Part shown: one piece after another, positions 1,682-60,322 of the stretch
Numbering within the stretch: position 1 is the first letter of the stretch
How the letters are laid out: the number at the start of each line of letters is the position of its first letter
NCBI RefSeq assembly: GCF_002954765.1
Contig: NZ_MTPW01000001.1
Span: 2,369,501-2,433,500 of the forward strand
Length of the DNA stretch: 64,000 bases
Direction of reading: 5' to 3'
From: Nonlabens arenilitoris
Lineage (GTDB): Bacteria; Bacteroidota; Bacteroidia; Flavobacteriales; Flavobacteriaceae
Translations under genes and position numbers: made by a program
Notes under the pieces: generated by a model
Told to the model about the DNA's origin: nothing
Seen by the model: the letters and a program-made list of their open reading frames with translations, nothing else
The model's database searches: none

Positions 1682-2287
1682 ATGTCACAAAAACTACCAC
1701 TTTCTTATTACCAGCAAAATGATGTGGTGTATCTCGCAAAAAATTTAATAGGTAAGAAGGTAGTGAGTAACATTAACGGAGAACTGACAAGTGGTATCAT
1801 AACTGAAACTGAGGCCTATCGAGGCTATGATGATAAGGCCTGCCACGCACATTTAGGACGTTTTACAGACAGGACTAAGGTGATGTATGAACCAGGTGGC
1901 GTTGCTTATGTTTACTTGTGCTATGGTATCCATCACTTATTTAATATCATCACAAATATTGATGGTAATGCAGACGCTATCTTAATACGTGCAGTAGAGC
2001 CTGTACAAGGTGTCGAAATCATGCTCAAACGCAGAGGTAAAAAGAAACTAGATAAAACACTGACCTCAGGACCTGGCAATTTTAGTAAAGCATTTGCTTT
2101 AGATAAGTCACATTATGGAGCAGATTTAACCGGTGATGAGGTATGGATTGAAAAGAATGATTTATTACGCTTTCGCGAAAGCGGTATTACCTCAACCACT
2201 AGAATAGGAATCGATTATGCAGGAGATGATAAGCACTTACCACGGCGTTTTTACTTAAATACGAGTCAATTTGTGAGTAAGCGATAG
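1682..2287 (+). CDS. mpg: 3-methyladenine DNA glycosylase (AAG/MPG family)
   Basis: Removes alkylated purines from DNA by base excision. The 201-residue protein shows the family signature: the catalytic Glu in ETEAY (about residue 42), followed by RTKVMY and the GVAYVYLCYGIHHLFNI core that forms the base-flipping pocket. Length is normal for bacterial AAG. One copy of the dispersed CGCTTTCGCGAAAGCG palindrome lies inside the gene (2168-2183) and is read as RFRES near residue 165, in a region that tolerates variation. It ends 3 bp before the convergent LytTR regulator gene. Confidence 0.93.
   Translation: MSQKLPLSYYQQNDVVYLAKNLIGKKVVSNINGELTSGIITETEAYRGYDDKACHAHLGRFTDRTKVMYEPGGVAYVYLCYGIHHLFNIITNIDGNADAILIRAVEPVQGVEIMLKRRGKKKLDKTLTSGPGNFSKAFALDKSHYGADLTGDEVWIEKNDLLRFRESGITSTTRIGIDYAGDDKHLPRRFYLNTSQFVSKR
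2168..2183. repeat. Dispersed palindrome copy 1 (inside mpg)
   Basis: Perfect CGCTTTCGCGAAAGCG inside the glycosylase gene, read in the frame CGC-TTT-CGC-GAA-AGC as RFRES. Confidence 0.95.
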
Positions 2288-2290
2288 CTT

Positions 2291-3034
2291 TTAACCACGG
2301 AATCGCTCTAAAAATTCAGCACGTTTAGCTCTGGCAACGGGAATAGTAGCGTCACTTGATAAAACTACATAACCATCATTTAAATATTTTACAATGTGTG
2401 TGGTATTCACTACATAAGATTTATGAATGTGATAAAAATCGGGATGAGTGAGAAGTTTTTTAAAATGACCGATGCTGCTTGAACTAAGTATGGGTTTGCG
2501 ATTAGTGAAATGAATTTTAGTGTAACCATCCACGCCTTCACAATGAGTAATGGTCTTTACTTTTACAAACTCAAGACCATCAATAGAAGGAATGACAATC
2601 TTCTTTTTTTGAAAATTTTCTTGACTTATGTTTTCTAGTAGTTGTTTGTTTTTTAGGAGTGCATTTTTTTGATTAATATTTATCGTTGCGTTTGTGACCG
2701 ATTCTACAAGATCTTCATTATCAATAGGTTTTACTAGATATCCTATGGCGCATTGTTTAATAGCATCAAGCGCATACTGATCAAATGCGGTAGCAAAAAT
2801 GATCTCAAATTGAGGATTTTTAAATTGCTCTAGCACGTCAAAACCGCTCATGCCAGGCATGGCGATGTCTATAAAAACGAGTTGTGGTTGCAACTCGTTA
2901 ATGATGTCAAATGCCTGTGCCGGTTTTTCTATAGTCGCTATGATGTCTAGTTCTGGACAGAAGCGTTCAATCTTACTTTTAAGAATTGCGATAGCCTTAG
3001 GCTCATCATCTATAAGAATGGTTTTTATGCTCAT
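2291..3034 (-). CDS. LytTR-family response regulator
   Basis: A two-component regulator of the LytR/AlgR type, 247 residues. The N-terminal receiver domain has the acidic pair IDD (residues 8-10) and the phospho-acceptor Asp at about 56 in FIDIAMPG. The C-terminal half (about 145-245) is a LytTR DNA-binding domain with HIHKSYVVNTTHI and the SSDATIPVARAKRAEF ending. It starts inside the stop codon of the kinase gene (ATGA overlap at 3031-3034), so the two are translationally coupled. Its cognate kinase is apparently frameshifted in this assembly. Targets are unknown; the envelope genes upstream on the same strand are candidates. Confidence 0.93.
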   Translation of the reverse strand: MSIKTILIDDEPKAIAILKSKIERFCPELDIIATIEKPAQAFDIINELQPQLVFIDIAMPGMSGFDVLEQFKNPQFEIIFATAFDQYALDAIKQCAIGYLVKPIDNEDLVESVTNATININQKNALLKNKQLLENISQENFQKKKIVIPSIDGLEFVKVKTITHCEGVDGYTKIHFTNRKPILSSSSIGHFKKLLTHPDFYHIHKSYVVNTTHIVKYLNDGYVVLSSDATIPVARAKRAEFLERFRG

Positions 3035-3830
3035 AAGTCCGTTAAATTTTGAATGCTTAGTTCCACGATTGTTCCTGTACCATCATTAAGTTCTGATCGG
3101 TCTTGAATAGAGTAGGAGATGTTCCAGTCACCGCTATCGTTTAAAATTTCTAATCGTTCTGCAATTACAGCACTGGAATGAGCCTTTGCAGTACCCATAG
3201 TTTGCTTATTGTGTTTTTTAGTCTTGTTAAGTCCTATACCATCATCTTTAATAATAATGATATATTGATTTGTTAACGTTGTAGTCTTAAAGTCCACTTC
3301 TATAATACCTGATGAGGTTTTATGAAAAATACCATGATTGACAGCGTTTTCTAGCATAGGCTGTATCATCATTGTAGGTATGCTTAAGTCTGTGATGTCT
3401 AGTGTTTTATCTATGTTAATATGGTATGATATTTTATCTTCAAACCTTAATTTTTCAATGTCTAGATATTTTTAATAAAAGCAATTTCTTCTTTAAGGGT
3501 AATAGTTTTGGTCCTAGAATAATCAAAAAAAAGGCGCATTAATTTTGAAAATTTTGTGAGGTAATCTTCACTTATTTCTACTTCATTGCGCTGTATATAA
3601 TACTGGATAGCGTTTAAGCTATTATGCACAAAATGCGGATTCAACTGGCTGCGCAGTGCGTTAAGTTCGCTTTCATATTGTTTCTTTTGAGCCGCTAGTT
3701 GATCTTCTAGTTGTTGTTGAAGTAGTTGGTTTTTACGATTGTTGAATGTGATGAAAAGAAAAACCATTCCTATCACAATGACTAGTATTAAGATAAATAG
3801 AAATAGGTATGTTATCGCTAGATTATCCAT
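3031..3830 (-). pseudogene. LytS-type sensor histidine kinase, apparently frameshifted
   Basis: A membrane-anchored histidine kinase (one N-terminal TM helix at residues 5-29, then a coiled coil). The His-kinase box LNPHFVHNSLNAI has the phospho-accepting His at residue 66. The reading frame stops at 3462 just after EEIAFIKN, where the family normally continues K(N/K)YL.IEKLRF. Exactly that continuation (YLDIEKLRF) is found in the next frame, followed by MMIQPMLENAVNHG (N box) and DDGIGL (G box) down to 3031. One missing base near 3466-3470, next to an A5 run, restores a normal kinase of about 265 residues. Either a sequencing error or a real loss of function. Confidence 0.85.
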
Positions 3831-4454
3831 TTAATTTTCTGAGTTTAATTCCATAAATCATGCTACCGTATAAAACTAAACTTGATATAGTAATTATTGA
3901 GTAAAAGATATTTTTATGAATCGTAATTAATTCTTGTATCAAGAAGAAAATGACAACTAAGTTTAATTGATAAATGATTACTGCTATTGATACCCAAAAT
4001 GCTGGTATTCTTTTAAAATTTATGACTTCACTATTATTCAATAGTTGTTGTAAGTAGACAAATACGTTGATCAAAATAATTATTGAAATAATAAAATTGG
4101 AATAGTAAAAATTTCAAAAAGAAAATTTTGGTACAACATATTTATTAAAAACGATAATAAACCTATAGATATACTAGTAATTAATAATTTGTTGTTTTTG
4201 ATGTTTTCATAAAACCAAATGAACAAAACTATATTAGTTAGAATTATAACTAAATTACTAAAAATCAATAAACTAGATTCTTCAACTCTTTTGAAGTAGT
4301 TTGCAAATATTTCAATTACAACCGTTATGGAAAGGAAAACTACTAACCATTTTTCAGGTGTATTTTTTAAAATATGCCAGTTGATAATTGCATAAATGAA
4401 TGCAATTATCATACTGCCATATAAAAAGTATTGAGTGATTGATATAAAATCCAC
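3823..4454 (-). pseudogene. Multi-TM membrane sensor-like protein, apparently frameshifted
   Basis: Two adjacent open stretches (4080-4454, 124 codons; 3823-4074, 83 codons) together give a hydrophobic protein of about 208 residues with roughly six TM helices. The second half carries a FWVSIAVIIYQ segment of a kind found in small membrane proteins encoded beside LytS kinases in Bacteroidota. The first half ends in ILLFQ-stop, and the second frame runs open back through the stop, so a single missing base within the AT-rich stretch 4075-4125 would join them. It overlaps the kinase start by 8 bp and lies 3 bp after the lipoprotein gene, so all are likely one operon. It probably supplies the sensory part to the kinase (inference). 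Confidence 0.65.
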
Positions 4455-4457
4455 TTC

Positions 4458-8081: not shown

Positions 8082-8393
8082 AATTAAAGATTTAGTTTAT
8101 GTTATAAAGTGAAAGAGCTTGATTCTTCACAATTGGCTAATTCAAATCACAGCTCTGTCACCTTGAATAACAGGACAAATATGTGGTTAACAGTAGGTTT
8201 AATCAACGGTCATTTGATTATCGGTAGGTTTCAAACCATCATCGGTTGTTATCATATTCTGATGATTTTACAGTTGTGCTGTCAGCTTGTCATTTATTGA
8301 TGAAATGGTATTGCATTTGACTAGTAGAAGGAGATTGATAATCACGCTTTCGCGAAAGCGTATACAATATAAACTTTAAGAATATTACATATT
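8082..8393. other. Divergent intergenic region between OmpA barrel gene and htpG
   Basis: About 310 bp between two divergent starts. It holds one dispersed palindrome (8345-8360) about 34 bp before htpG and several short TGAT/ATCA-rich segments near 8220-8275. I see no convincing gene; a 63-codon frame at 8109-8300 has no recognisable content. No clear sigma-32-like or CIRCE element was seen for htpG. Confidence 0.6.
8345..8360. repeat. Dispersed palindrome copy 2 (upstream of htpG)
   Basis: Perfect CGCTTTCGCGAAAGCG with flanking A/T giving an 18-bp dyad (8344-8361), 34 bp before the htpG start. Confidence 0.95.
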
Positions 8394-16672: not shown

Positions 16673-18187
16673 ATGAAATCTTATAAAAACATCATGATTC
16701 TCATGATGCTTACCATGCTATTAACGGCTTGTGGAGCATATATGAATCAGCCTATGGGAACTCAACCAGCCCGTATAGGTGAAGCGACAGAAGTCTCTAA
16801 GAGATTAATCGCTCTACCAGAGCCTAGTGCACCAGCAGTTGTCGGTGTCTATGAATTTGAAGATCAAACTGGTCAATTCAAACAATCAGAAAATGGAAGC
16901 ACCTTCAGTAACGCTGTTACCCAAGGTGGAACAACCATATTAGTAAAAGCGCTAGAGGACTCAAAATGGTTTACACCTATTGAAAGAGAGAATCTAGGGA
17001 ACTTACTTCAAGAACGTAATATTATACTCAATACCAGAAAAGATTATGCAGCGCGCAGTAATACACAAGTTAAAGAATTAGATCCATTACTATATGCAGG
17101 CGTGCTTATAGAAGGAGGAATTGTTTCTTATGACACTAACGTGTTAACGGGTGGTGCCGGTGCGAGATATTTTGGCGCTGGTGGTTCTACAAAGTATAGA
17201 CAAGATCGTGTGACCGTTTATTTAAGAGCCGTTTCTACAAAAACGGGTAAAATTATGAAAACCGTTTATGTGTCAAAAACAATCTATTCTCAAGCAGTAG
17301 ATGCAAGTCTATTTAGATACGTTAGTTTTAAAAGATTATTAGAAGCTGAAACTGGATTTACTAGAAATGAACCTGGACAGCTAGCCGTTAAAGAGGCTAT
17401 TGAAAAAGCAGTCGAGGCTCTTATAATTGAAGGTATTGATGCACAATTATGGTATCCTAAAGGAGGAAAACCCGTAGCTGATCAAATGATAGCAGCTTAT
17501 AAAGAAGAAAAATCTGTTGCAGAAAATACTGATGTGTATCAACGCAATATGCTTGATAGACGCAGCAAGTGGCGAGTTGACGCCGGTGCAGGTGGTACAT
17601 TAATTAATGGTGATTACCCTAATTCTTATTATGAATATGCTGCCACACTAGGTGTACAGTACAATTTTTCACCTTATGTAGGTATTCATGCGTCAGTGCA
17701 TAAATTCAGATTGAAAAACACAGATCTATTTAATCGAGAATTTGCTGCGTCAGAACTTAATGTGCATTTAACCATGCTACCTTATGATAAATTCACTCCT
17801 TATATATATGGAGGTGCAGGTTTAAATCATGCTAACTTTTTTGAACAAAACGATGTAAAGGCGCAAGCAGGATTAGGTCTTGAATATACAATTTCACCAT
17901 CCTTAGGTATAAAATTATATGCAGACTATAATGCTGTGTTATCAGATGATTTAGACTATGTCGTGGCAGGACAGCGAGATGATCATTACCTCAAATTTGG
18001 CCTTGGTGTGAATATCTATTTAGGTGGTAATGAAGCAAAGGATAATGATGAAAAACGTAAAATGAGAAAATACCGTCGTACACAACGACGTATAGAAAAA
18101 ATGAAACTAAGAGTTCAGGCAGAGCAAGAAGTTGCTGGAGACACGCTTTCGCGAAAGCGTAATAACTCAAACTTCCCTAACCCATAA
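16673..18187 (+). CDS. csgG: Curli secretion channel CsgG with C-terminal barrel extension
   Basis: An outer-membrane lipoprotein (lipobox LTAC, Cys20) of 504 residues. Residues ~50-262 are the CsgG domain that forms the nonameric curlin export pore (VVGVYEFEDQTGQF, LEDSKWFTPIERENLGNLLQERN, SFKRLLEAETGFTRNEP). E. coli CsgG stops near 277 residues; here ~180 more residues (295-455) form an OmpA/OprF-type eight-stranded barrel (YNFSPYVGIHASV, PYIYGGAGLNH, YLKFGLGVNIYLGG), followed by a Lys/Arg-rich tail. A dispersed palindrome (18144-18159) is read as TLSRKR in that tail, 16 codons from the stop region. Confidence 0.92.
   Translation: MKSYKNIMILMMLTMLLTACGAYMNQPMGTQPARIGEATEVSKRLIALPEPSAPAVVGVYEFEDQTGQFKQSENGSTFSNAVTQGGTTILVKALEDSKWFTPIERENLGNLLQERNIILNTRKDYAARSNTQVKELDPLLYAGVLIEGGIVSYDTNVLTGGAGARYFGAGGSTKYRQDRVTVYLRAVSTKTGKIMKTVYVSKTIYSQAVDASLFRYVSFKRLLEAETGFTRNEPGQLAVKEAIEKAVEALIIEGIDAQLWYPKGGKPVADQMIAAYKEEKSVAENTDVYQRNMLDRRSKWRVDAGAGGTLINGDYPNSYYEYAATLGVQYNFSPYVGIHASVHKFRLKNTDLFNREFAASELNVHLTMLPYDKFTPYIYGGAGLNHANFFEQNDVKAQAGLGLEYTISPSLGIKLYADYNAVLSDDLDYVVAGQRDDHYLKFGLGVNIYLGGNEAKDNDEKRKMRKYRRTQRRIEKMKLRVQAEQEVAGDTLSRKRNNSNFPNP
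18144..18159. repeat. Dispersed palindrome copy 3 (inside csgG)
   Basis: Perfect CGCTTTCGCGAAAGCG near the 3' end of csgG, read in the frame ACG-CTT-TCG-CGA-AAG-CGT as TLSRKR. Confidence 0.95.
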
Positions 18188-21984: not shown

Positions 21985-23033
21985 TATTTCTTAATTTTAA
22001 TTTCAAACATCTTATCCCATCTCTTACCAGTTACAAAAATAGTACCGCTCTTAGGGTTGAAAGCAATTCCATTAAGTACGTTATCATCCTTATTTGCATT
22101 GGGAATTTGAGCAGTTAATGATTTTAAATCTACAATACCTTCTACGACACCAGTTTTTGGGTTGATAATTGTTATACCATTGGTTTGATACACATTTGCA
22201 TATATTTTACCATCAATCCACTCTAGTTCATTAATTTTTGTAATACTATTTTTAGTAGATACGACTTGTACATAACTTAACTCTTCAAAAGTTATTGGGT
22301 CGATCTTCCATATTTTATCAGTACCATCACTCTTGTATAAATATTTACCATCATTACAAAGTCCCCAACCTTCTTTACTGCGACCATATTTAAACTCATC
22401 GATACGATTAAGAGATAGATCATAGACATATCCATATCCAGCTTGCCACGATAATTGATAAATTTTATCATTAAGAATCGTCATACCTTCTGCAAATATG
22501 TGGTCTGGTAATTCAAACTTCTTTAAAGCCTCTCCTGTATTTACATCTGTAATTCTTAGGTCACTTTCTTTAAACTGTCCGGTACTCTCATAAAGTGAGT
22601 CGCCATAAAACTCAAGCCCTTGCGTATACGATTCTGTTTTATGAGGATAAGTAGCAATTTCTTCTATTTGATAAACTTTTACATTATTAGGAGCTAATCT
22701 TGTGATGTGTGCAGACTTTGTTACCATCTTTCCATCTTTATATATGGACGCTTCAAATGTAAGTTTACCATAAGGTTGTGTACTCAGCTTTCGCGAAAGC
22801 GTAATACTATTTTCACCTTCAACTTTACCAGCATTTATATGCCAAATGATGCTATCATTTCCTATTTCTGAGGCATCGATAACTGATAAATTGATCGAAT
22901 CTGAGTTGGTGTAAGAATTTTTAGGATTAGTTATCTCTAAACTATAATTGTCTTTAAAGGTATCGATATCATTCTTACAGGCTGTTAACGAGATGGTTGC
23001 TAGTAAGATTATAGCGGCATTTTTCCAGTTCAT
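21984..23033 (-). CDS. Glutaminyl-peptide cyclotransferase (plant/bacterial type), lipoprotein
   Basis: Converts N-terminal Gln to pyroglutamate. A lipoprotein (lipobox LTAC, Cys19) of 349 residues. The N-terminal ~120 residues are an immunoglobulin-like stretch; the C-terminal ~225 residues form the five-bladed propeller of the Glu_cyclase_2 family (SYTQGLEF, YESTGQFKESDLR, FAEGM, EGWGLCNDG, NELEWIDGKIYANV, VLNGIAF, VTGKRWDKMFEI). A dispersed palindrome (22787-22800) lies in the N-terminal domain, read as TLSRKL. First gene of a coupled operon with the thioesterase and the beta-helix lipoprotein. Confidence 0.9.
   Translation of the reverse strand: MNWKNAAIILLATISLTACKNDIDTFKDNYSLEITNPKNSYTNSDSINLSVIDASEIGNDSIIWHINAGKVEGENSITLSRKLSTQPYGKLTFEASIYKDGKMVTKSAHITRLAPNNVKVYQIEEIATYPHKTESYTQGLEFYGDSLYESTGQFKESDLRITDVNTGEALKKFELPDHIFAEGMTILNDKIYQLSWQAGYGYVYDLSLNRIDEFKYGRSKEGWGLCNDGKYLYKSDGTDKIWKIDPITFEELSYVQVVSTKNSITKINELEWIDGKIYANVYQTNGITIINPKTGVVEGIVDLKSLTAQIPNANKDDNVLNGIAFNPKSGTIFVTGKRWDKMFEIKIKK
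22787..22800. repeat. Dispersed palindrome copy 4 (inside glutaminyl cyclase gene)
   Basis: The 14-bp core GCTTTCGCGAAAGC followed by GTAAT; the left flank is A instead of C. Read on the minus strand as TLSRKL. Confidence 0.93.
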
Positions 23034-23085: not shown

Positions 23086-23116
23086 TTTGCAAAGTATAAA
23101 CTAGGTATTATATTTG
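23086..23116 (+). promoter_or_regulatory. Promoter of the SRP RNA gene
   Basis: TTTG at 23086-23089 and TATATTTG at 23109-23116 with a 19-bp spacer, an exact fit to the Bacteroidetes promoter, placed directly before the SRP RNA. Confidence 0.8.
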
Positions 23117-23118
23117 CA

Positions 23119-24896: not shown

Positions 24897-27299
24897 ATGG
24901 ATAATTGTTTCCATTGTGGAGATCCATGCATTGAACAAACTATCGCACATGATGAGAAGAAGTTTTGTTGTAATGGATGCAAACTGGTTTATGAAATACT
25001 AAGTGATAATGATTTAGGTAATTATTATAATATTGAGAATAATCCAGGTACATCTCCTTCTTTTTCAAAAGATAAATTCAACTTTCTTGAAAATGAAGAA
25101 ATAGTTCAAAAATTACTGGAGTTCAATGAGCAAGATGTTCAAGTGGTTCAATTATCTATACCGTCAATACATTGTAGTTCTTGTATATGGGTATTAGAAA
25201 ATTTACAACGTATTCATCATGGAGTTAAGTCTTCTCAAGTAGATTTTCCTAAAAAAACTGTAAGAGTTACCTTTAATTCAAATGAATTAGAACTTAAAGC
25301 ACTAGCGATATTACTTGCTTCAATTGGTTATGAGCCTTATATATCATTAGATGATTATGAAGAAAAAGATAAAAAAGTTGATCGCTCTTTAATCTATAAA
25401 TTAGGTGTAGCAGGATTTGCTTTTGGGAACGTGATGTTTTTATCATTCCCAGAGTATTTTGAGGTTCAAGAGTTTTGGTTAGATCAGTTTAAGGGGCTTT
25501 TCCGCTGGATGATGTTTGCTTTTTCTTTACCAGTAGTTTTCTATGCAGGTATAGATTATCTTAAATCTGCTTATAAAGGGATTAAGTCTGGTGTTTTAAA
25601 TATCGATATTCCTATCGCTTTAGGGATTGTAGTGTTATTTGTACGTAGTACGATTGAGATCGTTTTTGATTTAGGTACTGGTTTTTTAGATAGTCTTACT
25701 GGTTTAGTATTCTTTCTATTATTAGGCCGTTTTTTCCAGCAACGTACCTATGCATACCTCTCTTTTGATAGAGATTTCAAATCTTATTTTCCTATTGCAG
25801 TAACTAGATTACTTAAAAAAGATGGTCTTGTAGATGAAGATCAAGTACCTATTTATAAAATCGAAAAAGGAGATAGACTACTGATAAGATCTGGTGAGAT
25901 TTTACCAGTAGATGCTGTTTTATTAAGCGATAAAGCCTCGATGGATTATAGTTTTGTAACGGGTGAATCTGATCATATCACTAAATATTTAGGAGAGGTA
26001 CTATACGCTGGTGGTAGGCAGCAATCAGGGCTAATAGAGGTAGAAGCTATAAAAAATGTAGAGCAAAGTTATTTAACCAGTCTGTGGAGTAATGATGTTT
26101 TTAAGAAAAAACGCCACTCTAGTTTTCAAACACTAGTCGATCGTATCTCAAAAAAATTTACAGTTACCATTATTACTATAGCGGTAATAGGAGCTTTCAT
26201 ATGGTTATTTATTAATCCACTCATTGCTATTAATGTGTTCACAGCGGTTTTAATTGTTGCTTGTCCTTGTGCTATTGCTTTATCTACTCCATTTACAATG
26301 GGTAATATGTTGCGCATTTATGGTCATATGGGATTGTATCTTAAAGAGTCTGTTATCATTGAGCGCATGTCACAAATTGATACCATAGTATTTGATAAAA
26401 CAGGTACTATTACAACGAGCTCTAGCTCGCAAATAGAATATCAAGGTGATCCTTTAAATGAATTTGAAGAAAAAAATCTAGCAAGTACTTTGCGCGGTTC
26501 TAACCATCCATTGAGTAGAGCGCTGTACAACGAGCTTAAAAAAAATGATATCCTGCCTGCTTTAGATGATTTTAAAGAAGTGGCTGGAAAAGGACTGATA
26601 TCTAGAATAGATAAAGAGGTAATTAAGGTAGGTTCGCCATCGTTTACTGCATCTCAAATAGCTCAAAACGAGCATGTAGAAACGGCAGTTCATATCAATT
26701 TTAATCAACAATACAAGGGGAAATATACTTTTAAGAATAAGTATAGAACTGGTGTAGATACCCTATTTAAACGATTGTCAAAACACTATAAATTACATGT
26801 TGTATCTGGTGATAATGCAGGAGAAAAAAAACATCTCAAGGAACTATTACCATCTGATGTGATACTTAAATTTAATCAACAACCAGAACAAAAGCTTAAT
26901 TATATCAAAGATCTACAATCGCAGGGCGCTAGAGTAATGATGGTAGGTGATGGATTAAACGATGCTGGCGCACTTGCACAGTCAGATGTAGGTATTTCAA
27001 TAGCCGAAAACGTAAACGTTTTCACACCAGCCTGTGATGCTATTATGGATGCAAGTATCATAGACCGTATGGATGATGTGATCACGCTTTCGCGAAAAGC
27101 GGTAAACATCATCAATTGGTGTTTTATCCTGTCATTATTCTATAATCTTATAGGTATTTCAATCGCTTTAAGCGGCAATTTAACACCTGTAATGGCAGCT
27201 GTTTTAATGCCGTTAAGTTCATTGAGTGTTGTTGTATTTACTACAGTTATGACTAATTATTTAGGTAGAAAAATATCTAATAAAACTTCTCAAAACTGA
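24897..27299 (+). CDS. ccoI: Copper-transporting P-type ATPase for cbb3 oxidase assembly (CcoI-type)
   Basis: A P1B ATPase of 800 residues that moves Cu(I) for insertion into the cbb3 CuB site. In order: an N-terminal Cys-rich metal-binding domain (CFHCGDPC, CCNGC, residues 4-28), an HMA domain with HCSSC (Cys93, Cys96), the TM pore motif CPC in VACPCAIALSTPF, the phosphorylation site DKTGTIT, and the hinge GDGLND. This arrangement is the CcoI/FixI type. A degenerate copy of the dispersed palindrome lies at 27085-27101. The next promoter's FNR box overlaps its stop codon. Confidence 0.93.
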   Translation: MDNCFHCGDPCIEQTIAHDEKKFCCNGCKLVYEILSDNDLGNYYNIENNPGTSPSFSKDKFNFLENEEIVQKLLEFNEQDVQVVQLSIPSIHCSSCIWVLENLQRIHHGVKSSQVDFPKKTVRVTFNSNELELKALAILLASIGYEPYISLDDYEEKDKKVDRSLIYKLGVAGFAFGNVMFLSFPEYFEVQEFWLDQFKGLFRWMMFAFSLPVVFYAGIDYLKSAYKGIKSGVLNIDIPIALGIVVLFVRSTIEIVFDLGTGFLDSLTGLVFFLLLGRFFQQRTYAYLSFDRDFKSYFPIAVTRLLKKDGLVDEDQVPIYKIEKGDRLLIRSGEILPVDAVLLSDKASMDYSFVTGESDHITKYLGEVLYAGGRQQSGLIEVEAIKNVEQSYLTSLWSNDVFKKKRHSSFQTLVDRISKKFTVTIITIAVIGAFIWLFINPLIAINVFTAVLIVACPCAIALSTPFTMGNMLRIYGHMGLYLKESVIIERMSQIDTIVFDKTGTITTSSSSQIEYQGDPLNEFEEKNLASTLRGSNHPLSRALYNELKKNDILPALDDFKEVAGKGLISRIDKEVIKVGSPSFTASQIAQNEHVETAVHINFNQQYKGKYTFKNKYRTGVDTLFKRLSKHYKLHVVSGDNAGEKKHLKELLPSDVILKFNQQPEQKLNYIKDLQSQGARVMMVGDGLNDAGALAQSDVGISIAENVNVFTPACDAIMDASIIDRMDDVITLSRKAVNIINWCFILSLFYNLIGISIALSGNLTPVMAAVLMPLSSLSVVVFTTVMTNYLGRKISNKTSQN
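27085..27101. repeat. Degenerate dispersed palindrome copy 5 (inside ccoI)
   Basis: CGCTTTCGCGAAAAGCG, one extra A relative to the consensus; read as TLSRKA. The imperfect dyad shows drift of the element inside a coding sequence. Confidence 0.85.
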
Positions 27300-32350: not shown

Positions 32351-32364
32351 GCTTTCGCGAAAGC
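32351..32364. repeat. Dispersed palindrome copy 6 (between ccoG and ccoH)
   Basis: GCTTTCGCGAAAGC followed by GTATT; intergenic inside the cco operon. Confidence 0.93.
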
Positions 32365-38789: not shown

Positions 38790-38805
38790 CGCTTTCGCGA
38801 AAGCG
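38790..38805. repeat. Dispersed palindrome copy 7 (between convergent genes)
   Basis: Perfect CGCTTTCGCGAAAGCG with A/T flanks (18 bp, 38789-38806), 2 bp after one stop codon and 14 bp before the other; it could act as a bidirectional terminator stem. Confidence 0.95.
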
Positions 38806-41490: not shown

Positions 41491-41591
41491 AAATGTTTAA
41501 TTATTGATACCTTCTTGAATTAATGGCAATTTGTTAACGCATTGTCTCATTATTGATTCAGAATTTTGCAATAACAATAGATGTAGCTATT

Positions 41592-42963: not shown

Positions 42964-42979
42964 CGCTTTCGCGAAAGCG
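42964..42979. repeat. Dispersed palindrome copy 8 (after ktrB-like gene)
   Basis: Perfect CGCTTTCGCGAAAGCG with A/T flanks, 19 bp after the channel gene stop. Confidence 0.95.
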
Positions 42980-43001: not shown

Positions 43002-43053
43002 ATGCTTTATCTTTAGAATCTTAACTAAGATATAAAGATGAAGCATTTTTTTT
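43002..43053 (+). promoter_or_regulatory. Terminator-like hairpin containing the DUF2891 start codon
   Basis: ATGCTT-t-ATCTTTA (43002-43015) pairs with TAAAGAT-g-AAGCAT (43033-43046), 13 bp with one mismatch, directly followed by a run of T. The start codon of the next gene (ATG 43038) lies in the 3' arm, so the structure could end the upstream transcript and also limit entry into the pxp operon. Confidence 0.7.
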
Positions 43054-45333: not shown

Positions 45334-45334
45334 T

Positions 45335-46069
45335 ATGGTTACGATTGATGTTAATATGGACCTAGGTGAAGGAATGAATGTTGAAGGACAGGTTATGCCA
45401 TATATAAGTTCTTGTAATATTGCATGCGGTGGCCATTATGGAAATTATGATTCTATAAAAGAGACCTTGCTTTTAGCTCAAAAATATGGTGTCAAAACAG
45501 GTGCGCATCCTTCTTTTGAAGATCGAGAGAATTTTGGTCGAATTCATTTAGATTGGAATGAAGCACGCTTTCGCGAAAGCGTATCTAAACAAATCCAGCA
45601 ATTCCATGATGTAGCATTAGAGCTAGGAATGACTATGCATCACATCAAAATGCACGGTGCTTTATATCATGCAACAGCACACTTACCTGAATATGTTGAT
45701 TGGACAATTAAGTTGGTGAGAGACCAATATCCAGATGTTAAGTTATATGTACCATCTGACAGCTTAATAGAACAAGAATTAAAGAATCATAGATTGTCTT
45801 ATTTACAAGAGGCATTTGCTGACCGACGTTATGATGGTGATGGGAAATTAGTTCCTCGCAGTAAACCTAATGCGGTAATTGAAGATGTATCAAAGCTTGT
45901 TAATCAACTATCAATGATGGTTCATGAACATAAGGTGATTTGTATAGATGAGCAGGAAATCCCCTTAAATGCACAAACCTATTGTGTGCATGGAGATAAT
46001 CTATCGATAGTTCACAATTTTAATGAGGTAATTACTGCATTGAATTTAAATCGAATTAAAATTGGATAG
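45335..46069 (+). CDS. pxpA: 5-oxoprolinase subunit A (LamB/YcsF family)
   Basis: A 244-residue subunit of ATP-dependent 5-oxoprolinase, which opens 5-oxoproline (pyroglutamate) to glutamate. Family motifs are VNMDLGEG (start), SSCNIACGGHYG, GAHPSFEDRENFGR and HIKMHGALYH. The start is ATG 45335 (MVTIDVNMDLGEG), 1 bp after the transporter stop. A dispersed palindrome (45566-45581) is read as RFRES in the loop LDWNEARFRESVSK. Confidence 0.93.
   Translation: MVTIDVNMDLGEGMNVEGQVMPYISSCNIACGGHYGNYDSIKETLLLAQKYGVKTGAHPSFEDRENFGRIHLDWNEARFRESVSKQIQQFHDVALELGMTMHHIKMHGALYHATAHLPEYVDWTIKLVRDQYPDVKLYVPSDSLIEQELKNHRLSYLQEAFADRRYDGDGKLVPRSKPNAVIEDVSKLVNQLSMMVHEHKVICIDEQEIPLNAQTYCVHGDNLSIVHNFNEVITALNLNRIKIG
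45566..45581. repeat. Dispersed palindrome copy 9 (inside pxpA)
   Basis: Perfect CGCTTTCGCGAAAGCG with A/T flanks inside pxpA, read as RFRES. Confidence 0.95.
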
Positions 46070-48676: not shown

Positions 48677-48692
48677 CGCTTTCGCGAAAGCG
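48677..48692. repeat. Dispersed palindrome copy 10 (after yihY-type gene)
   Basis: Perfect CGCTTTCGCGAAAGCG; flanks AGTA / TACT extend the pairing if two mismatched bases are allowed, giving a strong stem immediately after the stop codon. Confidence 0.95.
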
Positions 48693-48915: not shown

Positions 48916-49416
48916 ATGAGTACAGAAAACCTTTACCAAAAAGAAGCCTTAGAGAAATATCTAGAATTATCTAGATCAATTGAGACCAGCATGATGCTTA
49001 CTAATTTAGGGTCAAAGCCAGTGGACAGTATACCGATGACTCCTAAAAGGATAAATGATAACGGCTCCATACTATTCTTCAGTAAAAGCACGAGTGATCA
49101 TAATAAAAACATTGAAAATGATCCAGATACTCAATTAATTTTTAGTAATGTGAAGTCTAAAGAGTTTTTAAGTGTTTATGGAACCACTACTATTAGTAAA
49201 GACCCAATATTAATTGAAGAGCTGTATGGAAACCTGGATAACAATTGGTTTAAAGGAAAAGATGACCCAACAATAACAGTGTTGACCTTCACACCACAGC
49301 AGGCGCAATATTGGGATACTAAGACGAATTCAATTGTAACCCTTGCAAAATTAGCGTACACAGCTATCACCGGTGATGAGACAGAAATAGGAACTAGTGG
49401 AAGTTTAAAATTATAA
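48916..49416 (+). CDS. General stress protein, pyridoxamine 5'-phosphate oxidase-like
   Basis: A 166-residue split-barrel flavin-binding fold protein of the general stress protein 26 group. It shows ETSMMLTNLG, SILFFSKSTSDHNKNIENDP and QAQYWDTKTN, matching the FMN-binding barrel layout of that group. A redox or flavin-sequestering role is assumed for the family. Its stop codon overlaps the ATG of the hemerythrin gene by one base, so both are coupled, fitting a stress or oxygen-sensing pair. Confidence 0.85.
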   Translation: MSTENLYQKEALEKYLELSRSIETSMMLTNLGSKPVDSIPMTPKRINDNGSILFFSKSTSDHNKNIENDPDTQLIFSNVKSKEFLSVYGTTTISKDPILIEELYGNLDNNWFKGKDDPTITVLTFTPQQAQYWDTKTNSIVTLAKLAYTAITGDETEIGTSGSLKL

Positions 49417-52640: not shown

Positions 52641-54230
52641 TTAACTACTACAGCTCAACATACTACATCCTACTTTGGTACGAGCCCAGTCTGGTCGCAG
52701 ATCATACCATTTATCAAATTCTGGTTGCTCGTCATATGGTCGTTGCAACATTCTATAGACCTCATTTAATAAGGTATAATCACCTTTATCAGCCTCGTCA
52801 ATTACTAATTGTGCGATATAATTTCTAAACACATATTTTGGGTTAATAGCGTTCATTTGTTGTTGTTTCGCTTTCGCGAAAGCGATACCATCCATACCTA
52901 ACGCGTCTTGCTCTAACTGCAGTCTTTTTAAATATGTTTCTAACCATTCTAGCCAGCTCCACTGATGTGGCTCGCTGATGTTTTCAAGATCATAGAAAGC
53001 CATTGAAATAGTTATGAAGGCTTTATCAGCATCCATATGTGGTTCAATCAAAGATAATTCCCTGAAAAACAAAGTCATGTCTGTCTCGTGCAGCTGTAGA
53101 TGATGTTCTAAAGTAGCGACTAGCTTTTGATCATTTTCTTGAGTGGTTTGAAGTCCCAATTTGCTTTTCATCATCATCAAGTACTGGGACTGATAGTTTG
53201 ATTTATATTCATTTAAAATAGCTTCTAGTGCCGGACCATCATTAATTAATTCATATAATGCATTTGCTAGTTGCAATAGGTTCCATAAACCTATCTCTGG
53301 TTGTGCACCATAGCGGTAACGTTTATTCTGGCTGTCTGTGGTGTTAGGTGTCCATCCATGTTCATAAGGCTCTAACCAGCCATAGGGTCCGTAATCTATA
53401 GTAAGTCCTAGAATAGACATATTATCTGTGTTCATCACTCCATGTACAAAGCCTACACGCTGCCAGTGAATAATCATTTCTAGCGTGCGATGAGTCACCT
53501 CTTGAAAGAATTGTAAATAGGCTTCTTTACCTGTCGCGGTAATATGACTATAAAATGTTTTTATGGTATAATCAGTAAGCTGCTTCAAATACTCTGGATT
53601 GCCTTGCGCTGCAGCCCATTCAAAATTTCCAAAGCGTATAAAACTAGGCGCTACACGACATACAATAGCACCTTTTTCATGTGCAGCATTACCATCATAT
53701 AACATATCACGCAGTACCTGGTCGCCACTTAATGAAAGTGATAAGGACCGCGTGGTAGGAACACCTAGATAATGCATCGCCTCGCTACATAAATGCTCGC
53801 GTATACTGCTGCGCAGCACGGCAAGTCCATCACCACGTCGAGAATATGGAGTAGGACCAGCACCTTTTAACTGCCATGCCCATCGCTGGTCATGATGCAG
53901 CATCTCAAATAAATTGATAGCACGTCCATCACCTAACTGTCCAGCCCAATTGCCAAATTGATGTCCGGCATATGCCATTGCATAAGGTGCAACGTTATCT
54001 GGTAATTCTTGTCCAGTGACTAACTTTTTAAAGGAAAGTGACTGCACATCTTCATTTGTAAAACCCAGCTCTTGTGCTAGCTTAGATACATGAATGACTT
54101 GTGCGTTTTTAAAGACTAATGGTTGCGCTAGGGAATAAGCCGCACCAGTAACTTGTCTAGTGTAATTTTCTGTTATTGGGTCCTGTGGTAACGCGTCTGT
54201 AAAGCTGTTATTAATATGGATGTTGTGCAT
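52641..54230 (-). CDS. selO: Protein adenylyltransferase SelO (YdiU)
   Basis: A pseudokinase-fold AMPylase of 529 residues that transfers AMP to protein Ser/Thr/Tyr. Motifs are GQLGDGRAINLFE, KGAGPTPYSRRGDG, RSSIREHLCSEAMHYLG, HGVMNTDNMSILGLTIDYGPYG and the C-terminal GCSMLSCSS, where the conserved Cys replaces the selenocysteine of animal SelO. I start at ATG 54230 (MHNIHINNSF); a 24-codon upstream extension is not family-like. A dispersed palindrome (52869-52884) is read as AFAKA. Confidence 0.93.
   Translation of the reverse strand: MHNIHINNSFTDALPQDPITENYTRQVTGAAYSLAQPLVFKNAQVIHVSKLAQELGFTNEDVQSLSFKKLVTGQELPDNVAPYAMAYAGHQFGNWAGQLGDGRAINLFEMLHHDQRWAWQLKGAGPTPYSRRGDGLAVLRSSIREHLCSEAMHYLGVPTTRSLSLSLSGDQVLRDMLYDGNAAHEKGAIVCRVAPSFIRFGNFEWAAAQGNPEYLKQLTDYTIKTFYSHITATGKEAYLQFFQEVTHRTLEMIIHWQRVGFVHGVMNTDNMSILGLTIDYGPYGWLEPYEHGWTPNTTDSQNKRYRYGAQPEIGLWNLLQLANALYELINDGPALEAILNEYKSNYQSQYLMMMKSKLGLQTTQENDQKLVATLEHHLQLHETDMTLFFRELSLIEPHMDADKAFITISMAFYDLENISEPHQWSWLEWLETYLKRLQLEQDALGMDGIAFAKAKQQQMNAINPKYVFRNYIAQLVIDEADKGDYTLLNEVYRMLQRPYDEQPEFDKWYDLRPDWARTKVGCSMLSCSS
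52869..52884. repeat. Dispersed palindrome copy 11 (inside selO)
   Basis: Perfect CGCTTTCGCGAAAGCG inside selO, read in the third possible frame GCT-TTC-GCG-AAA-GCG as AFAKA. Confidence 0.95.
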
Positions 54231-54376
54231 GATACAAAGGTAGCAGAATTGAAGGGAAACTAGATTTAATGATATGCCAAACCATATATAAAGGAATCTC
54301 AAAAATCCCCCATAATGGGAATGGTTTACTATTCTATAACAATGTAATTTTCATCATTAATCAATAATTATAAATT

Positions 54377-56245: not shown

Positions 56246-56656
56246 TTGTCATCAAAAAATAATCCATTGCACTGTCCTTGTGATACCCAGCGACTCTATA
56301 AAAACTGTTGTGCAATCGCGCATCATCAAATTAATGATGTCGCTACAGCACAGCAATTGATGCGATCGCGTTATAGCGCTTTTGTTATAGGTGACATCGA
56401 TTTTCTACAACGCAGTCATCACAGCTCTATGAGACCTAGTAAAAAAGAAGCTCGTGAGATCAAACAATGGACTCAATCTGTAGATTGGATTAAATTAGAA
56501 GTTTTACAAACTAATAAAGGACTGAAAAACGATTTAACAGGTACGGTAGAGTTCAAAGCTTATTTTATGGAAAATGGTCGGGTAGACGTCATTCACGAGC
56601 ATTCTAGATTCTGTAAAGAGAATGGACATTGGGTTTATCTAGACGCGATGGTATAA
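56246..56656 (+). CDS. YchJ-type protein (SEC-C zinc motif and NTF2-like domain)
   Basis: A 136-residue protein of the YchJ/UPF0225 family. The N-terminal zinc motif is CPCDTQRLYKNCC and the NTF2-like domain has LMRSRYSAFVIGDIDFL and ends HSRFCKENGHWVYLD. The start is a TTG at 56246 because no ATG fits. The molecular role is unknown. A dispersed palindrome follows 23 bp after the stop. Confidence 0.88.
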   Translation: MSSKNNPLHCPCDTQRLYKNCCAIAHHQINDVATAQQLMRSRYSAFVIGDIDFLQRSHHSSMRPSKKEAREIKQWTQSVDWIKLEVLQTNKGLKNDLTGTVEFKAYFMENGRVDVIHEHSRFCKENGHWVYLDAMV

Positions 56657-56679: not shown

Positions 56680-56695
56680 CGCTTTCGCGAAAGCG
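56680..56695. repeat. Dispersed palindrome copy 12 (between convergent genes)
   Basis: Perfect CGCTTTCGCGAAAGCG between the YchJ-type gene and the small basic protein gene. Confidence 0.95.
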
Positions 56696-56942: not shown

Positions 56943-57302
56943 ATGACCGTAAAAGATCTGGTAGGTACTTATAAAGTTAAAGGACATAATCAAGATCGAG
57001 CACATAGCAGCTATAGTGGTGTTCTTACCTTATCACTGGATCAACACGATAGAGTGGTTGCACGATGGCAAATAGGTAATGATCAAGTGCAACAAGGAAT
57101 AGGCTTTTATAAAGATCATATTCTAGTCATTAACTTTAACTATACATCTGATACCGGTGCGATATTTAAAGGTGTGGTAGTGTATAAATGCTTAACTAAG
57201 GATATTCTAGATGGTTTCTGGTCAGAAGAATTAGGTGATCCAGACCATCTAGGTGCAGAACAGGCTTATCGAATTACAGAAAGAAGCGAGTTACTGAATT
57301 AA
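56943..57302 (+). CDS. Hypothetical cytosolic beta-rich protein
   Basis: A 119-residue protein without a signal peptide, beginning MTVKDLVGTYKVKG and rich in beta strands (SGVLTLSLDQHDRVVARWQIG, ILVINFNYTSDTGAIFKGVVVYKCL). The W-and-G pattern resembles lipocalin-like small domains. I recognise no family and no motif that gives a function. Confidence 0.6.
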   Translation: MTVKDLVGTYKVKGHNQDRAHSSYSGVLTLSLDQHDRVVARWQIGNDQVQQGIGFYKDHILVINFNYTSDTGAIFKGVVVYKCLTKDILDGFWSEELGDPDHLGAEQAYRITERSELLN

Positions 57303-58270: not shown

Positions 58271-58966
58271 ATGAAATTTTTAATTTTTGTGGCAATTCTG
58301 TCATGCACGCCTTTTTTAGCTTATGGTCAAGTAGGTATTAATACCCAATTACCGCAAGCCTTACTAGATATTGAAGTGTCTGATCCAGCTGCGCCAGATA
58401 GTACAGATGGTATATTAATACCACGTGTTAGTGCTTTTCCTGCGGTTGCTCCAGACGTGAGTCAAGATGGAATGTTAGTATATCTTACTACAACCACAGG
58501 TAATAGTACACCAGGTTTTTACTATTGGAATGGAACCATTACCCAATGGTGTAAGTTAATGACTGAGAATGCTATGATGATGTGCTCGATATCTGGTGTA
58601 GGTTAAGGTATTTCTGGTACGGTTTTCAATTTTGACAACTTGAGATTCTCCAGTATTCAAGGAGCAAGTTTTGTAGGTAATGAATTAATGTTGCCGCCTG
58701 GAGTTTATGAAATAGAATCAGACTTAAGGCTCAATCCTAATGTAGCTATAGAATGGAACATGCGTGTGGGCGGCACTATATATGCAGGCTCCATTCCAGG
58801 ATCGTCAGTATCTGCTGTAGCTCTACTTCATACCAGTACTGCTCCACAACGAGCTATAGTCACTATTACTAGCAGTTCTGGTGGGATAGATTTTATCATT
58901 ACTAATGGTGTAGGCGCAAATCTTGTGTCAGACTGTAGCTATCTAAAGATTACAAAGTTGCAGTAG
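58271..58966 (+). pseudogene. Secreted GVGI-type protein, copy D, interrupted by an in-frame stop
   Basis: Signal peptide ending in AYGQ and mature start VGINTQLPQALLDIE, the GVGI motif of the proteins at 36198, 37504 and 51667. The frame meets TAA at 58604-58606 and then continues open in the same frame for 120 more codons to 58966, with beta-rich content like copy C (SIQGASFVGNELMLPPGVYEIESDLRL). A single base change explains it; one-base indels do not. Either a recent pseudogene, a base-call error, or readthrough. Confidence 0.75.
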
Positions 58967-59286: not shown

Positions 59287-59296
59287 ATTTAAATTA

Positions 59297-59312
59297 CGCT
59301 TTCGCGAAAGCG
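59297..59312. repeat. Dispersed palindrome copy 13 (before hsdM remnant)
   Basis: Perfect CGCTTTCGCGAAAGCG, 28 bp before the hsdM remnant start. Confidence 0.95.
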
Positions 59313-59340
59313 GAATTACAACACACAAACAGTATCCTAA

Positions 59341-59439
59341 ATGTCAGAAGAAGAAAAACAACAAATACTCAAACAAACACTCTGGAATATTGCAAACGAC
59401 CTGCGTGGTAATATGGATGTCGCTATTTTAAGTTTATAA
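59341..59439 (+). pseudogene. Remnant of type I restriction-modification hsdM (N-terminus only)
   Basis: A 32-codon frame starting MSEEEKQQILKQTLWNIAND then LRGNMD, which is the conserved N-terminus of type I methyltransferase subunit HsdM (LWNIANDLRGKMDADEFRDYILG). After NMD the similarity stops abruptly (VAILSL-stop), with no continuation in other frames before the convergent gene 17 bp later. The rest of the system has been deleted, leaving a scar. Confidence 0.75.
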
Positions 59440-59456
59440 AGTTGTTGTAGTAGCAG

Positions 59457-60269
59457 TTATTGGAACTTCATATATACAGGCAAATGATCAGATAGCATTC
59501 TCATATCATATAATTGATCGCAAGACTGCACAAAATCAATACTTCCACAATCGATTAATTTAGTTTTTATCGAGTCATAAATAATATTATCTACGGCATG
59601 ATTCAGATATGTATGGTTGTCACATGATTGCTTTAAGGTTGTTTTATCACCGTTGAGACAAGCTTTAAAATTATTTTCTTTGAATGTATTAAATACACGA
59701 TGACTAATTGGTAAATTAAAATCTCCAGCGAGAATAATATTCTCATCTTTATGGTTAAGCATATAATCACTTAGGCAATTTATTTCAATCTCAGGTTGCT
59801 CACTATACTTTCTAGAATGGTAGTTAAGAACAGTAAAGATCTTCCCGTTTGCTTCAAATCTCATTCTATAAGGTTCTCGATACACACAAGAATCTAATTC
59901 TGTTACTAAGACTCCTTTTTCAACAACTTTTAACTTACTCGTTTTCCATAAAAAGGCATATTTTTCTGTTTTATATTTAGGACTTTTAGTCGCATAGCTT
60001 ATAGAGTAATCCCATTTACTTCCTTTTCTATTAAGCTCATCGGCCAGTCTTGCAACCGCTTGTGAACCACCATATCCTGCTACCACTTCTTGAATGGCGA
60101 TGATGTCATAATCCCTCAAAATTTCGGCAATATTTTCGATTTCGTCAGCAGACTTTGTCTTACCGAAGTCTCTAATGTTCCACGTTACTAATGATGTTTC
60201 TTGTGCATGAGTTGACAATGGTATGCTTAGAGTTAAGATGACTATGAATAGTAAATGTTTTATGCTCAT
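59457..60269 (-). CDS. Secreted endonuclease/exonuclease/phosphatase-family protein
   Basis: A secreted DNase I-like fold protein of about 270 residues. Start ATG 60269 gives a signal peptide ending in THAQ; an in-frame extension to 60305 is less likely. Motifs: VTWNIRDFG, IIAIQEV (metal-binding Glu), ILAGDFNLP and LSDHLPVYMKF (catalytic His/Asp). It cleaves DNA or phosphoester substrates outside the cytoplasm, perhaps for scavenging. Convergent with the hsdM remnant. Confidence 0.9.
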   Translation of the reverse strand: MSIKHLLFIVILTLSIPLSTHAQETSLVTWNIRDFGKTKSADEIENIAEILRDYDIIAIQEVVAGYGGSQAVARLADELNRKGSKWDYSISYATKSPKYKTEKYAFLWKTSKLKVVEKGVLVTELDSCVYREPYRMRFEANGKIFTVLNYHSRKYSEQPEIEINCLSDYMLNHKDENIILAGDFNLPISHRVFNTFKENNFKACLNGDKTTLKQSCDNHTYLNHAVDNIIYDSIKTKLIDCGSIDFVQSCDQLYDMRMLSDHLPVYMKFQ

Positions 60270-60308
60270 AAAAAGTGATATAATATGGGATGATTTTTTA
60301 TCCATTTC

Positions 60309-60322
60309 GCTTTCGCGAAAGC
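60309..60322. repeat. Dispersed palindrome copy 14 (before secreted nuclease gene)
   Basis: GCTTTCGCGAAAGC core, 40 bp upstream of the nuclease-family start. Confidence 0.93.

Follow-up and report, generated by a model that had tools for sequence, protein, structure and literature searches.

The palindrome GCTTTCGCGAAAGC occurs in 550 perfect copies in the 3.3 Mb genome of Nonlabens arenilitoris, where base composition predicts 0.003 and the reversed control is found 0 times. Judged from the sequence, the tentative interpretation is that it forms the core of a signal for DNA self-recognition, most likely one for uptake during natural transformation (probability about 0.45). This reading, absent from the possibilities listed in the first-pass annotation, fits somewhat more of the evidence than a chromosome-organising site. 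The first-pass annotation had noticed the palindrome at 14 places in the window, i.e., the whole 64-kb stretch of DNA analysed, and had suggested counting it genome-wide, examining strand, ori-ter, and coding bias, and comparing orthologous positions in relatives. The genome-wide count proved to be far above random expectation.

Copies in the window and shape of the repeated unit

All 14 places in this window from a member of the Flavobacteriaceae are real (Table 1), 13 being perfect 14-mers and the one at 27085 a degenerate copy. At the level of the 16-mer ten are perfect, and those at 22786, 32350, and 60308 differ by one outermost base with the 14-mer intact. Dinucleotide shuffles of the window yielded 0.06 matches with up to three mismatches, and 14 were reached in 0 of 100 shuffles.

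Table 1. Copies of the palindrome in the 64-kb window, their surrounding open reading frames (ORFs), the peptide read through the site, and its state in compared genomes.
Copy	Position	Context	Reads	Compared genomes
Perfect 14-mer	2169..2182	within ORF 1682-2287 (+)	RFRES	
Perfect 14-mer	8346..8359	flanked by divergent ORFs 6366-8081 (-), 8394-10283 (+)		
Perfect 14-mer	18145..18158	ORF 16673-18187 (+), close to C-terminal end	TLSRKR	exact in G012, G003, G001
Perfect 14-mer	22787..22800	within ORF 21984-23033 (-)		exact in G012, G003, G001, G006
Degenerate, 10-bp core and one additional A	27086..27100	within ORF 24897-27299 (+)		
Perfect 14-mer	32351..32364	spacer of ORFs 30908-32329 / 32389-32832		exact in G012, G003, G001, G006
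Perfect 14-mer	38791..38804	spacer of convergent ORFs 37504-38787 (+) / 38820-39689 (-)		exact in G003; one substitution each in G012, G001
Perfect 14-mer	42965..42978	spacer of ORFs 41553-42944 / 43038-44156		
Perfect 14-mer	45567..45580	within ORF 45320-46069 (+)	RFRES	
Perfect 14-mer	48678..48691	spacer of ORFs 47688-48674 / 48916-49416		
Perfect 14-mer	52870..52883	within ORF 52641-54302 (-)	AFAKA	
Perfect 14-mer	56681..56694	spacer of ORFs 56246-56656 / 56943-57302		
Perfect 14-mer	59298..59311	spacer of ORFs 58640-58966 (+) / 59457-60305 (-)		
Perfect 14-mer	60309..60322	spacer of divergent ORFs 59457-60305 (-) / 60478-60870 (+)		

The whole repeated unit spans about 50 bp and consists of the 16-bp palindrome with symmetric A-rich, G-poor arms on both sides. 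A sequence logo built from 127 sites displayed a flank consensus that is weak, consistent, and symmetric and covers about 18 bp per side, and no T-run on the 3' side of the palindrome. Among 109 sites both arms were strong in 71, one in 30, and neither in 8. That copies share no long identical flank had been stated before and was seen again here, but the flanks are not featureless, given this symmetric consensus.

Spacing and gene context

Figures on spacing, flanks, and context refer to 644 kb of the 3.32 Mb genome, made up of 29 stretches of 20 kb and the window (stretch L068, which overlaps the window, was omitted, and 5,000 bases of L077 are N), with genes called as longest ORFs; individual genome positions are listed for the first 100 of the 550 sites. 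Near-misses are few, 21 copies with one mismatch versus 109 perfect ones. The average density is about one site per 6 kb, and 0 pairs of copies lie less than 1 kb apart in the 644 kb versus about 17 expected. Spacing is more even than chance, which bears out the fairly even distribution claimed in the first-pass annotation, and strong repulsion with even spacing is also found in other Nonlabens and in genome G242.

Together with the perfect palindrome and the symmetric footprint of about 50 bp, this spacing also favours the main rival explanation, which the first-pass annotation had listed and which is considered unlikely: the motif would be bound by a homodimeric protein that organises the chromosome (Noc-, SlmA-, or MatP-like, or DNA-wrapping) and is needed about every 5 kb, with selection retaining one site per interval. 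The sites parS, Noc (NBS), SlmA, and MatP are palindromes scattered over the chromosome and bound by homodimers. The motif differs from them in its 550 copies, in a density wave that was not significant (permutation P 0.12 over 30 stretches of 20 kb, a test of low power with ori and ter not located), and in the single ParB match; the search for a binding protein, which covered ParB, gave no candidate. The sequence of parS is unlike the motif, and a ParB/parS system was rejected on that one match. The strand check was equally negative, as the right-hand flank was the stronger one at 56 of 109 sites and no regional strand pattern emerged. Further arguments against an organising site are that 550 singly dispensable sites would demand strong selection to give 21 one-mismatch versus 109 perfect copies, and that the motif comes and goes between neighbouring genera.

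The check for coding bias revealed intergenic enrichment, with 38 of the 109 sites in the 9.5% of bases that lie between genes, and a reading-frame bias (44/15/12) among the 71 sites within genes. A hairpin could form, and the intergenic share might suggest an RNA hairpin, a terminator, or a regulator operator. This is very improbable in view of the 71 genic sites, the missing 3' T-run, and the location of the window's sole Rfam match elsewhere. The 37 classifiable intergenic sites, moreover, comprise 22 tandem, 6 convergent, and 9 divergent ones versus 32.8, 11.5, and 11.1 kb of available spacer; terminator and operator were rejected on gene context.

A further explanation, judged rather improbable, is that of a HIP1-like iterated palindrome maintained by another process, such as the action of topoisomerase or gyrase at the site, a repair bias linked to methylation, or a role as signal for a recombination hot spot. 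The last variant is opposed by the nature of Chi, which is short, non-palindromic, and oriented, with a density comparable to that of the motif; the motif differs from Chi and KOPS in its palindromic form and the lack of a strand pattern. The explanation as such is favoured by the occurrence of an iterated palindrome inside and outside genes, as for HIP1, by the core TCGCGA being rarer apart from the motif than composition predicts (34/64 in 644 kb), and by the symmetric A-rich flank, which could suit DNA wrapping. HIP1 (GCGATCGC), described as a highly iterated perfect palindrome of cyanobacteria (PMC4390886), is a different sequence from another phylum, and the motif is longer, sparser, and neither the HIP1 octamer nor a GATC/CGATCG methylase site. 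Of the HIP1-like repeat proposed in the first-pass annotation only the character of a highly iterated palindrome stands.

Turnover of sites between relatives

In four close genomes (that of the window, G012, G003, and G001) 24 of the 33 pairwise comparisons, which are non-independent, showed an exact site, versus 10–24% for random 14-mers; another alignment of the window loci with four relatives gave 18 of 22 kept. Eight of the nine differences among the four genomes are gapless substitutions, and between close relatives sites change mainly by point mutation. The full set of 55 genome pairs gave a list of 53 differences, 26 of them gapless and 27 gapped, the latter mainly in distant, poorly aligned pairs. 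When the left flanks of these 53 were inspected, no gap of 14–16 bp with an aligned left flank was found, and the lone 14-bp gap also deletes nine or more bases of the flank.

A REP/RAYT-like small mobile palindrome would likewise be short, palindromic, and dispersed, and two Nonlabens relatives (G002 and G005) encode Y1_Tnp proteins. A search of the own genome, however, gave a single weak Y1_Tnp match, and the motif-rich genomes G226 and Dokdonia G431 have none; clean empty sites of 14–16 bp are missing from the differences seen, and copies have no common flanks. Such an element is hardly credible, and a mobile element or transposon was rejected on the differing flanks, the turnover by substitution, and the weak transposase match, in agreement with the first-pass annotation. 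Its claim of a selected site is likewise upheld, in the wider sense of selected or driven, by the 550 copies, the few near-misses, the conservation at orthologous positions, and the even spacing.

Distribution in the family and a second oligomer

At copy numbers in the hundreds the motif belongs to a few related marine bacteria. It is abundant in 23 of 23 Nonlabens genomes searched (288–857 copies each). Among 397 genomes drawn from the family at least 400 copies were found only in four Nonlabens and two others, the rest having 0–19. In G242 and G226 core and near-flank signal are as in Nonlabens, a Dokdonia locus of 22 kb carries five copies, and presence or absence of the motif changes between neighbouring genera. 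An rpoB tree gave no firm placement of Nonlabens relative to the G226/Dokdonia/G242 group or to the genera next described.

Neighbouring genera contain a different oligomer, CTTCGGAA(A), which is USS-like in one genus. Its form CTTCGGAAA was counted 456+465 times in G048 (control 49+42) and 408+409 times in G112 (control 26+32), where it is accompanied by A/T tracts. It is nearly missing from Nonlabens (3+1 in G000, control 22+13), and G078, a member of the CTTCGGAA group, is not rich in it (16+8, control 33+41). No mutual repulsion of CTTCGGAA(A) copies was found in G112, G048, and G137, which counts against the uptake model. An avoided counterpart of the motif in Nonlabens (TTCGAA/TTCGGAA) was also considered and dropped, since TTCGAA is just as rare in G112, a motif-poor genome, and is reduced in G123 as well.

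If the neighbouring genera use CTTCGGAAA as their signal, the family would have dialects, and the GCTTTCGCGAAAGC and CTTCGGAAA genera can be likened to the related taxa with differing DUS described for Neisseriaceae (PMC3630211). It is conceivable, though doubtful, that Flavobacteriaceae have genus-level uptake dialects, with a two-sided palindrome, a homodimeric receptor, and a pilus-less machine in Nonlabens and Dokdonia-type and G226-type genomes versus a one-sided CTTCGGAAA in neighbours, and a switch between one-sided and palindromic form within one clade.

Phages, prophage-like contigs, and islands

Two related Nonlabens phages (65.7 kb) contain 0 copies versus 10.9 expected, and a 35-kb gap without sites begins with 20 kb of an ulvan polysaccharide locus that has one site at its edge. 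Both tests are small, and a Poisson model predicts 1.6 gaps of 35 kb among 550 sites. Such absences are predicted by an uptake signal and a chromosomal protein site alike. A pattern scan of viral contigs matched at least 120 stretches, mostly with one copy among the matches listed; the multi-copy ones examined were the prophage-like L160 and L143. In the 11.3 kb of L160 there are three flanked copies, one of them within an ORF for a head-maturation protease; the 14.0 kb of L143 have two, close to genes for an integrase and a tape-measure protein. These copies lower the uptake and the dialect reading somewhat, and are compatible with a chromosome-organising site, as is the absence from the phages and the foreign-looking locus.

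Ten stretches in other genera were chosen for clustered copies. Nine share genes by alignment and the tenth (L082) aligned with none; the six shared genes that could be named encode a CzcA/CusA-type RND protein, a TolC-type protein, an adaptor, two P-type ATPases, and a weakly matching Fur-like regulator. An initial suggestion that the motif marks origins of replication in other genera was not borne out. Scattered copies occur in other genomes too, e.g., G536 and G568.

Comparison with known uptake signals

Uptake specificity is known mainly from the type IV pilus systems of Pasteurellaceae and Neisseriaceae. Uptake signals familiar to us are non-palindromic, and we know of no palindromic one, which speaks against the uptake reading. 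With the USS of Pasteurellaceae, as described in PMC7811141, the motif shares an over-represented conserved core, A/T-rich flanks, a rather even spread, and tolerance in genes; as in USS and DUS systems the oligomer is far above chance and its host has competence genes. The same source gives an under-representation of USS in newly acquired segments and an average spacing of about 1 kb, than which one site per 6 kb is clearly sparser. Drive is assumed to maintain USS and DUS, whose versions differ between related taxa (PMC7811141, PMC3630211). The motif differs from both in its palindromic form with arms on both sides, its core of 14–16 bp, its strong mutual repulsion, its presence in some prophage-like contigs, and in being known from sequence alone, and its hosts' group is said to use pilus-less competence.

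A competence machinery of the ComEC/DUF5689 type is described in Riemerella (PMC8459023), and R. columbina is reported to prefer its own DNA in uptake (PMC7965970). Every one of 30 chosen genomes has a DUF5689 gene, and ComEC was present in 9 of 9; motif-poor genera have the genes too, so they are not specific to the motif. DUF5689 had been guessed to be the receptor; its tree does not group the motif-rich genera (3 changes versus a shuffled mean of 3.4) and thus gives this candidate no support, a further point against the uptake reading. Searches for literature on transformation in Nonlabens or Dokdonia, on CTTCGGAA, on Nonlabens palindromes, and on flavobacterial uptake sequences yielded nothing relevant. 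Neither the 14-mer nor the 16-mer was found in a search with subscription journals largely outside its scope; matches had only TTTCGCGAAA and are apparently unrelated.

As an uptake signal the symmetric site would be bound by some part of the pilus-less competence machinery of flavobacteria, located at the cell surface or in the periplasm, and fragments with at least one site would enter the cell more often. Their recombination into the chromosome would then spread and repair sites, a molecular drive. One site per fragment would suffice, and it is proposed that for this reason new sites build up in regions still lacking one and clusters do not form.

If the motif is an uptake signal, the pilus-less competence machinery of flavobacteria would gain a test substrate from within Bacteroidota, the contrast of GCTTTCGCGAAAGC and CTTCGGAAA would offer a pair for studying dialect change, and the motif would be a tag for tracing gene flow, which metal-resistance islands already seem to show. 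If it is an architectural site instead, its density and invariance would be unusual for such a site.

Copy Number and Extent of the Palindrome

The perfect 14-mer GCTTTCGCGAAAGC occurs 13 times in the window, which spans C1:2369501-2433500 of the genome, with ten of these copies lying within the 16-mer CGCTTTCGCGAAAGCG; of the 14 copies proposed in the first-pass annotation one is degenerate, and the others stand as perfect 14-mers. The complete 3.32 Mb genome, with Nonlabens ulvanivorans and other Nonlabens as its nearest named relatives, contains 550 perfect 14-mers where base composition predicts 0.003, and the reversed sequence used as a control does not occur. In 644 kb sampled from this genome TCGCGA was found 143 times, TTTCGCGAAA 114 times, the 14-mer 109 times, the 16-mer 88 times, and the 18-mer 29 times, and because of these counts along a ladder of nested lengths the repeat unit is the 14-16-mer and not the TCGCGA core. 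Near-miss copies with one mismatch numbered 21, those with two mismatches six. Two small contigs of the genome (C2 and C3; L351 and L352) carry three copies in 10.0 kb and one in 9.6 kb; such genes as could be recognised on them are of chromosomal type, some being apparently split, and the contigs are probably unplaced assembly pieces rather than plasmids. A description of the palindrome was not found in the literature searched.

Flanks were compiled for a pool of 127 sites and also for 109 sites. Read outward, the pooled flanks start with G, T/A, A, A, and T and continue predominantly with A as far as about +13, position +15 being C or T and position +18 being T. G makes up 1–12% of the flanks over +4 to +18 as compared to 17.5% in the background, and little signal is left past +31. 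The flank score exceeded the 90th percentile of the background on both sides in 71 of the 109 sites, on one side in 30, and on neither in eight, left and right flank strength being uncorrelated (r 0.09). As flank signal is present on both sides, the whole unit is therefore symmetric and about 50 bp long.

Features and loci with their positions
Feature	Location	Strand	Remark
Degenerate palindrome copy	window, 27086-27100		n=1
Bacteroidales small SRP RNA (RF04183)	window, 23114-23221	+	sole Rfam match in the window
Loci of neighbouring genera for CTTCGGAAA	L309-L317, L327-L340, L347-L348
DUF5689 twice in one 742-aa frame	G112:C1:178270-179733		genome with the most USS-like motif
Dense GACGGCGACGGC-type repeat	L325 (G251:C1:500001-520000)		many copies in 20 kb

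Occurrence and Conservation among Relatives

All 23 Nonlabens genomes searched contained 288–857 copies, and the 16 genomes of other genera in the same search contained none. Of 397 Flavobacteriaceae genomes drawn evenly, 317 had no copy, 74 had 1–19, and six had at least 400, namely, four Nonlabens and two genomes from outside the genus, G226 (408) and G242 (857). None of the 246 genomes from outside the family in an order-wide draw of 296 exceeded one copy. G242 (about 40% GC) and G226 (46% GC in the sample) have the identical core and the identical near-flank bias, the bias further out being weaker in G226. A locus from a MAG named Dokdonia holds five copies in 22 kb, and in an rpoB tree the genome of this MAG clusters with G242. 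The palindrome is a real, strong, and genus-wide iterated recognition sequence.

In line with the first-pass view of a selected site, copies are conserved at orthologous positions. In a close set made up of the window and the orthologous regions of three other genomes (G012, G003, and G001; 84–90% identity) the exact 14-mer was kept in 24 of 33 pairwise site comparisons, as compared to 10–24% for random 14-mers in the same alignments; against G006 (73% identity) 12 of 14 were exact (controls 3%). Eight of the nine differences in the close set are gapless substitutions of 1–5 bases, and the ninth is gapped and poorly aligned. Between close relatives, loss or gain of a site is thus mostly a matter of point mutation, and sites otherwise persist. 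Across eleven genomes (55 pairs) 53 differences were listed, 26 gapless and 27 gapped, the latter mostly from pairs with identities near 70%, for which the alignment is hardly informative. Among these 53, no gap of 14–16 bp has its left flank aligned, and the single 14-bp gap also deletes at least nine flanking bases. In distant Nonlabens many sites lie at different positions.

Placement and Spacing

Among the sampled sites 71 of 109 are located in ORFs and 38 in intergenic regions, a 3.7-fold intergenic excess as such bases make up only 9.5%. In ORFs the frame read as AFAKA is favoured (44 of 71), and intergenic sites are proportional to the available tandem, convergent, and divergent spacer. 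The fairly even spacing noticed in the window recurs in the sampled stretches, where no two sites are less than 1 kb apart (16.7 pairs expected; minimum of 2000 simulations 5) and four gaps are below 2 kb (30 expected). In a separate set, the 99 gaps between the first 100 listed sites of the genome, one gap is below 1 kb (772 bp) and three are below 1.5 kb, as compared to 21% expected. Other Nonlabens and G242 show this repulsion clearly as well, whereas it is weak for the 24 sites of G226, and four control octamers show none. Sites number one to five per 20 kb, with no significant chromosomal density wave (P 0.12). In the stretch L048 rRNA operons fill about the first 8 kb without a site, and two sites follow past them. 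Of the gaps between the first 100 sites the longest spans 35 kb (C1, 383–418 kb); its first 20 kb (L108, 383–403 kb) contain ulvan lyases (two PL28), rhamnosidases, a sulfatase, GH3, and GH88, together with a single perfect site, located at the edge, and another 10-bp core. A single gap of this size is not improbable alone (1.6 expected under Poisson). A dimeric chromosome-organising protein binding to the palindrome would fit its symmetry and spacing as well as or better than DNA uptake, but it accounts less well for the fact that 550 sites, each dispensable on its own, hardly vary.

A Second Motif in Neighbouring Genera

Sampling of neighbouring genera for repeated words yielded CTTCGGAA, with 39 copies in 40 kb of G048 (1.2 expected), 30 in 60 kb of G137 (1.7), 20 in 60 kb of G112 (1.2), and 10 in 60 kb of G372 (1.5). 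In G112, G048, and G137 copies of CTTCGGAA(A) did not repel one another. Whole-genome counts of CTTCGGAAA, with the reversed control in brackets, were 456+465 (49+42) in G048, 408+409 (26+32) in G112, 259+270 (39+31) in G137, 243+224 (41+42) in G372, and 572+594 (37+56) in G314; the excess over this control is about 6–14 fold in these genomes, G099, and others of the Flavobacteriaceae. In Nonlabens the counts were 3+1 (22+13) in N. arenilitoris, 2+2 (16+20) in G006, 0+2 (14+10) in G007, and 1+4 (13+13) in G014, and none of the six palindrome-rich genomes was rich in CTTCGGAAA. In G112, 59 of 68 TTCGGAA are part of CTTCGGAAA, followed mostly by T and then by A-rich runs near 13–17 and 21–25, a layout resembling the H. 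influenzae USS, in which AT-tracts accompany the core, as described in excerpts of PMC7811141; in G048 and G137 the A/T tracts are weak. CTTCGGAAA looks like a second uptake-type signal. A chromosome-organising protein explains less well both the presence and absence of the palindrome between neighbouring genera and the other iterated word found there; it is the main rival reading, and we consider it less likely than DNA uptake.

Two other words are depleted: TTCGAA is strongly avoided (25 versus 219 expected in the sample of the N. arenilitoris genome, 3 versus 75 in G112), and TCATGA is absent from 160 kb of G242 (52 expected); either restriction or codon use may lie behind this.

A Possible Role in DNA Uptake

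To the reading of the palindrome as a DNA-uptake signal we assign a probability of about 0.45. With its strict core, weak A/T arms, and tolerance in genes it resembles uptake sequences under molecular drive, as do its substitution-type turnover and the different signal in neighbouring genera (excerpts of PMC7811141 and PMC3630211). In Riemerella, which belongs to the wider group, competence involves ComEC, DprA, ComF, and RecA together with new proteins, among them one with DUF5689 and a neighbour for which an outer-membrane location is predicted; pilus homologues were not found in this genus (PMC8459023). N. arenilitoris has a ComEC, and a DUF5689 protein adjoins a putative outer-membrane-like ORF, which is our own reading of a sequence cut by the locus end and without a Pfam hit. 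The palindrome would, by inference, serve as a signal for uptake. Repulsion between sites would be expected if one site per incoming fragment were enough and a 50-bp unit were so long that only drive could produce it; this is an argument rather than a result, and it was put forward once the lack of repulsion in the shorter CTTCGGAA was known.

Phages and Foreign DNA

No copies were present in two closely related phages of Nonlabens, P12024S (35.7 kb) and P12024L (covered over 30.0 of its 35.7 kb), with 10.9 expected at chromosomal density. By contrast, two multi-copy IMG/VR viral contigs that were examined carry flanked copies. L160 has three in 11.3 kb, one of which lies within an ORF that matches a head maturation protease, close to an endolysin; in L143 two occur within 14.0 kb, with an integrase and a tape-measure protein nearby. 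Both resemble temperate phages or prophages, presumably from motif-rich hosts; copies in prophages would be no difficulty for a chromosome-organising protein.

Ten stretches in other genera were chosen for clustered copies, and these share the flank bias of the palindrome. In nine of them (L078–L081 and L083–L087; 69–95% alike) the copies lie within related genes, heavy-metal efflux genes among them, often at matching positions and some mutated at 1–3 bases. The simplest reading would be that the islands in motif-poor genera derive from motif-rich donors, and in the heavy-metal efflux islands the palindrome is perhaps a tag of gene flow.
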